From the NCBI GenBank assembly GCA_003278875.1, contig QCCQ01000002.1, positions 62,001 to 126,000 of the forward strand: DNA of 64,000 nt, in the 5' to 3' direction. Shown one piece after another: positions 3,929-6,325 of this stretch. How positions within the stretch are numbered: position 1 is the stretch's first letter; each line of letters begins with the position of its first letter. The translations under genes and the position numbers were made by a program. The notes beneath the pieces were generated by a model. That model made no database searches and was not told where the DNA came from. It was given only the letters and a program-made list of their open reading frames with translations. The DNA is from Prochlorococcus sp. AG-347-L21 (GTDB lineage: Bacteria; Cyanobacteriota; Cyanobacteriia; PCC-6307; Cyanobiaceae).

Positions 3929-3999
3929 TTAATTAACTTCTTAATTGAATTATAAGAGTTGATATCAAGAAACAAACTATCTATCAGAATTTCCTTAAG

Positions 4000-4081
4000 T
4001 GCGGTCGGGGAGACTTGAACTCCCACACCCGAAGATACGAGTACCTAAAACTCGCGCGTCTACCAATTCCGCCACGACCGC
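4000..4081 (-). tRNA. tRNA-Leu (anticodon UAG)
   Basis: Read on the minus strand, GCGGTCG (5' acceptor) pairs with CGACCGC near the 3' end, followed by discriminator A; CCA is not encoded. The D-arm contains GGAATTGGTAGAC and the T-arm GGGAGTTCAAGTCTCCC. The anticodon stem CGAGT/ACTCG encloses the loop TTTAGGT, giving anticodon TAG (UAG in RNA). The long variable arm TATCTTCGGGTG (stem-loop) is the class II signature of leucine tRNAs. Length 82 nt. Confidence 0.95.
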
Positions 4082-4250
4082 TCAAATAAAATAATAATTG
4101 AAAGAGGTTTATTTTAAAAATTTTTTTTCTTAAGATGATTAATTTGACACATTAAAATCGAATTAAAAATCTTCCAAAAGAAATTTTTTATATTTAAGCA
4201 TGCAATCACCTTAAAATATTAGTTATATTATTTAAAGAATAAAAGAAACG

Positions 4251-5270
4251 ATTTCAAACTTAACAAGTAAAAATACAACGAAAAATACTAATTCTTCAAA
4301 AACTTTTAATTGGCAAAAAGAGATTAAAAATTACGTAGATCCGCCAAGTTTTTGGAATCCAACATTAGGTTTATTTTTTGGCGGTTATTTTCTCGCGTTT
4401 CTTAGCATATGGCAATGGTATAGAGGAGTTTGGCCTTTACCTTTACTTGTGGCCACTGCTTTTTTAGCTTTACATATTGAAGGTACTGTTATTCATGATG
4501 CCTGTCATAAAGCTGCTCATCCAGTTCCTTGGATAAATCAAGCAATGGGCCATGGCTCAGCCATCCTATTAGGGTTTAGCTTCCCAGTTTTTACGAGAGT
4601 TCATTTACAACATCATATTCACGTAAATCACCCCAAAAATGATCCAGATCATATTGTCAGTACTTTTGGTCCAATTTGGCTAATTGCTCCAAGATTTTTT
4701 TATCATGAAGTGTTTTTCTTTCAAAGAAAACTCTGGCGAAGATATGAATTATTACAATGGGGAATTGAAAGATCCATATTCCTGACAATTATCTTGGCAG
4801 GTTTGAAATTTGACTTTATGAATTTAATTTATAATTTATGGTTCGGACCAGCATTAATGGTAGGAGTAACTTTAGGAATATTTTTTGATTATTTACCCCA
4901 TAGACCATTTCGATCAAGAAATAAATGGATAAATTCTCGAGTTTATCCAAGCAGGTTTATGAATTTATTAATAATGGGACAAAATTACCATCTCATACAT
5001 CATCTATGGCCTTCGATCCCTTGGTTTGAATACAAAATAGCTTATGAAAAAACTAAGCCTCTTTTGGATAAAAAAGGCTCCCCTCAAAGGGTTGGGATAT
5101 TTGAAAGTAAAGAAGACGTTTTTAACTTTATTTATGATTTATTAGTAGGTGTAAGGAGTCATAGCAAAAAGAGGGGGAAAATAAGAAAAATCATAAATTT
5201 ATATCCAGGCTTAAAGATAAAAAAAATTTTATTAAAGATAGTCAACAAAACATTTATTGGAAGCAACTAA
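4251..5270 (+). CDS. crtR: Beta-carotene hydroxylase, non-standard start codon
   Basis: CrtR-type carotenoid hydroxylase of the membrane fatty-acid-desaturase superfamily, which hydroxylates beta-carotene toward zeaxanthin in thylakoid or envelope membrane. The di-iron histidine boxes are visible: HDACH, HLQHH with HIHVNH, and HLIHH near the C-terminal third. The ORF track starts at a GTG (4449), but this cuts off an in-frame, clearly coding N-terminus that includes DPPSFWNPT and a transmembrane helix (LFFGGYFLAFLSIWQWY). The frame is open back to a TAA at 4233-4235 and contains no ATG, GTG or TTG. The best start is ATT at 4251, giving 339 residues, close to the family length; ACG at 4248 and ATA at 4239 are alternatives. 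Product assignment is firm, the start is not. Confidence 0.9.
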   Translation: MSNLTSKNTTKNTNSSKTFNWQKEIKNYVDPPSFWNPTLGLFFGGYFLAFLSIWQWYRGVWPLPLLVATAFLALHIEGTVIHDACHKAAHPVPWINQAMGHGSAILLGFSFPVFTRVHLQHHIHVNHPKNDPDHIVSTFGPIWLIAPRFFYHEVFFFQRKLWRRYELLQWGIERSIFLTIILAGLKFDFMNLIYNLWFGPALMVGVTLGIFFDYLPHRPFRSRNKWINSRVYPSRFMNLLIMGQNYHLIHHLWPSIPWFEYKIAYEKTKPLLDKKGSPQRVGIFESKEDVFNFIYDLLVGVRSHSKKRGKIRKIINLYPGLKIKKILLKIVNKTFIGSN

Positions 5271-5275
5271 CAAAC

Positions 5276-5569
5276 TCATTCATTAATAATTTTCGGTACT
5301 TTAAAATATTTATCTTCTCTTGATGGACCCAACTCTAGAAGTTGTTCATTGCAATCAGAATTTTTCTTTTCGTCTTTTCTAAAAACATTTATAACCTCTA
5401 TAGCTCTGGTTGTACAGGGGACATCATCTGTATCAATTTTTTCAAGTTGTCTTATATAATCCAATATCTTTTCTAATTGTTGTGCATGATTATTAATTTC
5501 ATTCTCGTTAAGTTCTAATCTCGCTAAATGAGCAACTTTTTTTACTTCCTCTTTAGTTATTTTTACCAT
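5276..5569 (-). CDS. gatC: Asp-tRNA(Asn)/Glu-tRNA(Gln) amidotransferase subunit C
   Basis: 97 residues, the normal size for GatC, the small subunit that stabilises the GatCAB complex. Cyanobacteria use this complex to convert Glu-tRNA(Gln) (and where relevant Asp-tRNA(Asn)) to the amidated form. The N-terminal VKKVAHLARLELNE segment and the ...LEKILDYIRQLEKIDTDDV segment are diagnostic. The stop lies 5 bp from the end of crtR, a tight convergent arrangement with no room for a conventional terminator. Confidence 0.95.
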   Translation of the reverse strand: MVKITKEEVKKVAHLARLELNENEINNHAQQLEKILDYIRQLEKIDTDDVPCTTRAIEVINVFRKDEKKNSDCNEQLLELGPSREDKYFKVPKIINE

Positions 5570-5740
5570 ACATTTAATATCTTTCTTATTAAATAATAGT
5601 TTATTAAGAACAACTTATTTACATATCCTTTGAATTTCAAATAATTTAAATAAATAATGACATCTTTTTGAAAATCAATATCAATTAATAGCCTTAATTA
5701 TTTTTCTCAGCTAAATATGTTATTAGATAGTTATTGAAAA

Positions 5741-6325
5741 ATAGAAGAAGAATTCTTTCCAAAAAATTTTTTTTATCGGCACTCTAAACTTGTTGCTCCT
5801 GATTTAATAGGCTGTTACCTCATAAAAAAAAATAATGAGATGGATCAAGTTAAAGGGGTAATTGTTGAAACTGAAGCTTATTCACAGGAAGAAGAGGCCT
5901 GTCATGGCTACCGCAAAATGTCTGAATCAAACAAATCATTATTTGGCAAACCTGGTACATTTTATATTTATAAATCTTATGGCATTCATCATTGTTTAAA
6001 CATAGTTACTGATAAAGAAAATTTTGCGAGTGGTGTTTTGATAAGATCAGTTTTTATTTCTAATAAGAATGAAAGATTAGCTTCTGGACCTGGCCTAGTA
6101 ACAAAAACATTCAGTGTAGACATTTCATTTAACTCAATTGAAGTTATTAATAACAAATCTTTATGGATTTCTCCACGAGACTCCACTCTAGAAGAAAAAG
6201 ATCTTATTCAAACTACGAGAATTGGCATATCAAAGGCAAAAAATATAAAATGGCGTTGGTATCTCAAAAATAGTAGGAGTGTAAGTAAAAGATTAAAAGG
6301 TGACAGAACACCTAAATTTCAATAA
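5741..6325 (+). CDS. mpg: 3-methyladenine DNA glycosylase, start codon uncertain
   Basis: AAG/MPG-family base-excision-repair glycosylase that removes alkylated purines. The active-site block VETEAY carries the catalytic glutamate, and the following TFYIYKSYGIHHCLNIV and LASGPGLVTK blocks match the family. The ORF track starts at the ATG at 5840 (161 aa), which would delete the conserved N-terminus. The frame continues upstream through FFYRHSKLVAPDLIGCYLIKK to ATA at 5741, just after a TGA at 5735-5737, giving 194 residues, the usual family length. There is no ATG/GTG/TTG in that stretch. A TTG at 5734 would join the frame if the A5 run beside it had one more base, so a homopolymer indel is an alternative to ATA initiation. 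Confidence 0.88.
   Translation: MEEEFFPKNFFYRHSKLVAPDLIGCYLIKKNNEMDQVKGVIVETEAYSQEEEACHGYRKMSESNKSLFGKPGTFYIYKSYGIHHCLNIVTDKENFASGVLIRSVFISNKNERLASGPGLVTKTFSVDISFNSIEVINNKSLWISPRDSTLEEKDLIQTTRIGISKAKNIKWRWYLKNSRSVSKRLKGDRTPKFQ

Follow-up and report, generated by a model that had tools for sequence, protein, structure and literature searches.

The question raised by this locus of Prochlorococcus sp. AG-347-L21 is where translation of crtR begins. The window, i.e., the whole 64,000-nucleotide stretch that was analyzed (contig QCCQ01000002.1, positions 62,001 to 126,000), carries this gene for a beta-carotene hydroxylase of the FA_desaturase fold on its plus strand, with a divergent tRNA-Leu gene (3999–4081, minus strand) as upstream neighbor. 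The open frame extends from stop to stop over 4236–5270 (344 aa), directly after an in-frame TAA at 4233–4235, and a scan of the frame found no ATG, GTG or TTG from this TAA up to a GTG at 4449–4451. This earliest standard start codon lies 66 codons past an ATT at 4251–4253, from which the coding sequence would occupy 4251–5270, or 339 codons and a stop. The translation matched Pfam PF00487 (FA_desaturase) well above cut-off (E = 3e-34) and NF045688 with 469 bits against a curated cut-off of 475 (E = 5e-141), over positions 10–295 of the 297 in the model. It carries the histidine boxes HDACH, HLQHH and HLIHH, where HDACH, HxxHH and HxxHH are expected.

A preliminary description of this DNA had proposed that the coding frame reaches about 66 codons upstream of the first GTG without a standard start, and that the segment DPPSFWNPT and a transmembrane helix are encoded in this extension. 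Both points held. The segment and the first hydrophobic stretch of CrtR map 5′ of GTG 4449 and their residues are strongly conserved, the NF045688 match begins well 5′ of this GTG, and the same layout was found in 145 sequences. CrtR was detected in 220 of 266 genomes of the genus, the missing cases being consistent with incomplete genomes, and the 145 sequences, taken from contig matches and genome loci, are those that are distinct over the crtR 5′ region. Because the arrangement recurs in 145 distinct sequences, many of them from independent single-cell genomes or cultured strains, chance was excluded, as was the proposal that a sequencing error hides an ATG. Automatic annotation might still give a short CrtR starting at GTG 4449, the first codon acceptable to a standard gene finder. 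The probability that this is the true protein is negligible: codon 67 is GTG in only 8 of the 145 sequences and otherwise GTA, GTT, GTC or ATT, nearly always one of the first three, and the short form would lose DPPSFWNPT together with CrtR model positions 10 to about 55, though these are strongly conserved. The idea that homologues begin at 4449 was thereby itself refuted.

The start had been ascribed to ATT 4251 or to an ACG or ATA nearby, a choice regarded as unexpected in a carotenoid hydroxylase, with the suggestion that an alignment across Prochlorococcus might reveal ATG at this position elsewhere. In the alignment, the codon corresponding to ATT 4251 was ATT in 133 sequences, ATC in nine and ATA in three, and never ATG (n = 145). 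In 135 of the 145, the interval from the upstream stop to the DPP motif contained no standard start at all. Among the ten others, seven had standard codons solely in the promoter region, 5′ of an invariant AGA; the last three were L142, with an ATG in the leader four codons 5′ of the ATT, L085, with an ATG at codon −1, and L115, with a GTG at the codon immediately preceding DPP. The attribution to ATT thus stood, AUH (AUU, AUC or AUA) being found in 145/145, and that to ACG or ATA did not, in view of variable codons, stops and leader indels.

Initiation at such a leader codon (ACG 4248 or ATA 4239), with the ATT as an internal Ile, is quite improbable. Both codons can initiate weakly and codon −1 encodes Thr in 135/145, but in-frame stops lie two to four codons 5′ of the ATT in 27/145 (codon −2 in 8, −3 in 17, −4 in 2). 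Codon −1, ACG here, varies among ACG, ACA, ACT, CCG, AAA, TCG, ATG, ATT, GCA and CCA, and the AAA, ATT, GCA, CCG and TCG found in some strains speak against a start there. The codon at ATA 4239 varies as well, and its position is 5′ of the in-frame stops in many strains. The leader also carries indels of 1–2 nt in some clades, so that the frame is not kept 5′ of the ATT. Since stops occur within four codons in 27/145 and codon −1 is freely variable, a start further upstream appears impossible. The ATT/ATC/ATA pattern of codon 1 is also that expected of an internal Ile, a reading excluded by the upstream stops and the leader indels.

Initiation downstream, e.g., at ATT 4323 within KEIKNY, with 4251–4320 untranslated, is improbable. 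Linker codons 5–18 are weakly conserved, as this reading would have it, but none of the 145 AT-rich sequences has an in-frame stop from codon 1 to the DPP motif, and 27/145 have one in the four codons preceding the ATT. Codons 1–4 and Trp 21 are moreover highly conserved, and an N-terminus counted from ATT 4251 matches in length the ATG-started forms of other genera. Substitutions, counted by parsimony on a FastTree tree of the crtR sequences of the genus, average 2.5, 1.2 and 12.4 changes at the three codon positions across the gene. Codons 2, 3 and 4 changed in a coding-like manner (7, 1, 12; 1, 0, 15; 9, 2, 3), with TTA/CTA Leu swaps and AAC/AAT swaps, and codons −2 to −4 did not. Codon 1 had 0, 0 and 5 changes, its third-position count being joint lowest of the 33 Ile-consensus codons in crtR. 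That ATG is missing at codon 1 is only moderately unlikely by chance, as among comparable T-ending fourfold sites of crtR 2 of 32 lack G too, and this absence is suggestive, not strong. Comparison of sequences across the genus shows where coding starts and that AUH is the start codon, fixed throughout the genus, and the start site is on this ground well supported.

The sequence upstream of the ATT suggests a promoter with a very short leader. An invariant GTTATATT at 4222–4229 (plus strand; TATATT at 4224–4229), identical in 145/145, is most naturally read as a −10 box. Transcription would begin at or close to an AGA at 4236–4238 that is likewise identical in 145/145. The leader would then cover 4236–4250, and its putative length is 15 nt in most strains and 16 or 17 nt in some; in-frame stops fall inside it in other strains. 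With GTTATATT followed six bases on by AGA, both invariant in the 145 sequences, the putative promoter and start region at 4222–4238 is unusually rigid. A sigma-70 consensus scan did not call the putative −10 of crtR because a good −35 is absent. An upstream out-of-frame ATG with ribosomal frameshifting, or an ATG hidden by a sequencing error, is a very improbable source of the N-terminus. Many strains do have an ATG upstream, in ATGCAATC (4200), but it lies 5′ of the putative −10, opens an ORF of four codons, and is ATA or missing in several strains; the interval from AGA to ATT is free of ATG in nearly all strains, and independent genomes agree. The Shine-Dalgarno energy of the crtR leader was not above the genome median (−1.1 vs. 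−1.0 kcal/mol), and no special RNA structure was found over the first 90 nt (z = 0.54). Prochlorococcus marinus is listed among organisms in which Shine-Dalgarno sequences are scarce (PMC10783764).

In other genera of the family, crtR has an ATG 25–37 codons before DPP in 24 of 26 loci. The two loci without it (L185 and L187) have an apparent single-genome frameshift near the 5′ end. In Prochlorococcus-like genera the distance is mostly 30–31 codons, and ATT 4251 lies 29 codons before the motif. Since sister genera have ATG at the matching place, the simplest history would be that AUH took the place of ATG in this genus's ancestor.

The decoding machinery gave no indication of anything special. 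IF3 is normal and full length (190 aa), with both domains present and residues 19–182 aligning to solved IF3 structures, and its loss was rejected as an explanation. The 1.6 Mb of genome G012 hold three ordinary CAU tRNAs and one GAU tRNA; altered decoding by an extra initiator tRNA was rejected on this count, and the AUU is most likely read by the normal initiator tRNA. The infC gene of the crtR-bearing genome (L200, contig C35) starts with ATG directly after a TGA, and not with AUU, so the classical infC loop does not operate via the start codon here, and an infC-like autoregulatory start was rejected as a shared trait.

A screen of the window, in which 66 genes were compared, singled out only crtR and MPG, the gene for DNA-3-methyladenine glycosylase (5741–6325, plus strand). 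MPG lies 470 bases downstream of crtR, with gatC alone between them (5276–5569, minus strand). Its frame reads TGA at 5735, AAA, and then ATA at 5741, the codon at which genus alignment and family models place the start. This codon is ATA in 123 of 125 genus sequences, ATC in one and ATT in one, with no ATG, and a stop occupies codon −2 in 92/125. The first standard codon, ATG 5840, is within the conserved domain, and the family models match the protein from their opening residues when it is read from the ATA (PF02245 from residue 10; TIGR00567 position 2 at residue 7; NF002003 position 7 at residue 6). ATA without a standard start was also found in several sister genera (L176, L177, L179). 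As for chance, 4 of 20 comparable A-ending sites of MPG are also without G.

A wider screen compared two genomes, G012 (1.6 Mb) and G023 (0.8 Mb), through 834 non-overlapping reciprocal stop-to-stop pairs, about half a genome, for coding conserved 5′ of any standard start in both. The raw matches were mostly shadow ORFs, frames in rRNA regions and ordinary ATG genes with conserved leaders, which were removed by eye. Six genes were left: crtR, MPG, comB, cobS, a TIGR04168 metallophosphoesterase and, less surely, nadA. The comB gene, encoding 2-phosphosulfolactate phosphatase (569469–570230 of G012; L321–L348), reads ATT AAT CTx at its start in the majority of strains of the genus, against ATG xxx CTT at the corresponding site in sister genera. 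The two most divergent strains keep a standard codon, ATG or GTG, two codons ahead of this site, and a TTG lies nearby in L339 and L340; position 1 of model NF002053 lands on the ATT. For cobS, nadA and the divergent TIGR04168 phosphoesterase (269561–270325 and 651203–653048 of G012, within L201–L280), a conserved frame precedes the standard start, and the candidate starts are ATC, ATA, ATT or CTG. We do not count nadA firmly because the sequence ahead of it shows no synonymous differences, and a shared divergent promoter may account for this conservation.

We hold it highly probable that crtR of high-light Prochlorococcus genuinely initiates at AUU after ancestral loss of the ATG and that, by analogy with other bacteria, this initiation is probably weak and IF3-sensitive. 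The ordinary initiator tRNA would read the AUU (AUC or AUA in some relatives) and give an N-terminal fMet, on an mRNA beginning about 15 nt 5′ of the AUU, from the conserved promoter, with no meaningful Shine-Dalgarno sequence. Judging from the precedents, the AUU would lower crtR initiation, CrtR synthesis would become sensitive to IF3 or to growth state, and hydroxylase output may be held low or tuned at translation. This analogy, on which a regulatory role of the AUU is suggested, is drawn because AUU and AUA elsewhere have about 10% of AUG activity and because IF3 represses non-canonical starts.

Starts other than AUG, GUG and UUG are thought to be extremely rare. In E. coli, infC starts with AUU and is subject to autoregulation by IF3, and the start is AUC in Streptomyces and AUA in S. 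aureus. The crtR gene resembles infC in its AUH initiation, which in infC has been fixed by selection over long times; unlike crtR, which has no link to translation, infC gives through its start a feedback on IF3 itself. A second AUU-started gene of E. coli, pcnB, is translationally limited (PMC13009471). It is likewise a gene other than infC, and its expression is held low by the AUU, although its function differs from that of crtR. In S. aureus, AUH starts are conserved in the ordinary genes cvfC1 (AUU) and ccpN (AUA), and in poor medium reporters with AUU or AUA starts reached about 10% of the activity seen with AUG (PMC13009471). Extended Shine-Dalgarno motifs are conserved in cvfC1 and ccpN, whereas the Shine-Dalgarno pairing of crtR does not exceed the genome median and its putative leader is only 15 nt long. 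The sigR gene of Streptomyces has a GTC start repressed by IF3, in 32 of 34 species, with GTT in the other two (PMC5472188). As in crtR, its non-canonical start is shared throughout a genus and leaves the third base free to vary, and the gene has been misannotated in genomes (PMC5472188); unlike crtR, sigR encodes a stress sigma factor and has an extensive ribosome-binding site, and its control by IF3 is proven by experiment. The weak-start genes controlled by IF3 (infC, pcnB, sigR and ccpN) differ from crtR, which lacks a strong or extended Shine-Dalgarno sequence as compensation. An annotation-dependent survey found one switch to AUU among 61,358 ancestral AUG starts (PMC5622118), and the literature searched contained no report of an AUU start for crtR. 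AUH starts are a known kind; what is new is crtR as the gene, the genus-wide fixation, the lack of Shine-Dalgarno support and the presence of several companions in one genome.

A serious rival concerns the function of the AUU, though not the start site: the AUU may be genuine and yet a neutral relic, AUG having decayed to AUH in a few genes of an AT-rich, drift-prone genome with relaxed initiation. We rate this reading at somewhat less than an even chance. AUH starts common to several unrelated genes would fit it, as would the drifting third base, the ATG of infC with the absence of the classic autoregulatory loop, and the lack of a Shine-Dalgarno sequence or RNA structure at the crtR start. 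Against it stand the genus-wide fixation and the lack of any reversion to ATG in 145 crtR and 125 MPG sequences, the statistical weight of which is moderate. More tentatively, and in our view rather unlikely, crtR, MPG, comB, cobS, the TIGR04168 phosphoesterase and perhaps nadA could form a small stable class started by AUU, AUA or AUC, with infC keeping AUG, in which AUG is selected against and output is low or follows the state of IF3 and the ribosomes. Several members would lie just 3′ of a likely promoter, behind a short leader and with no Shine-Dalgarno help. If true, the class would be a genome-wide layer of translational control in an organism with few regulators.

The genus that keeps AUH at crtR is one of Earth's most abundant photosynthetic groups, and the enzyme concerned makes zeaxanthin. 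Two testable questions follow, namely whether Shine-Dalgarno-free initiation in Prochlorococcus relaxes the choice of start codon and whether translation is the step that limits zeaxanthin synthesis. About six AUH genes came from a limited screen of half a genome, and gene finders therefore probably mis-start these proteins systematically. The TIGR04168 phosphoesterase needs a start before GDCHGQW because its first standard codon lies after that metal-binding motif. Pfam Metallophos begins at residue 8, but the TIGR04168 model does not set in until residue 29, past the first metal-binding motif, and truncated annotations may have gone into its construction.
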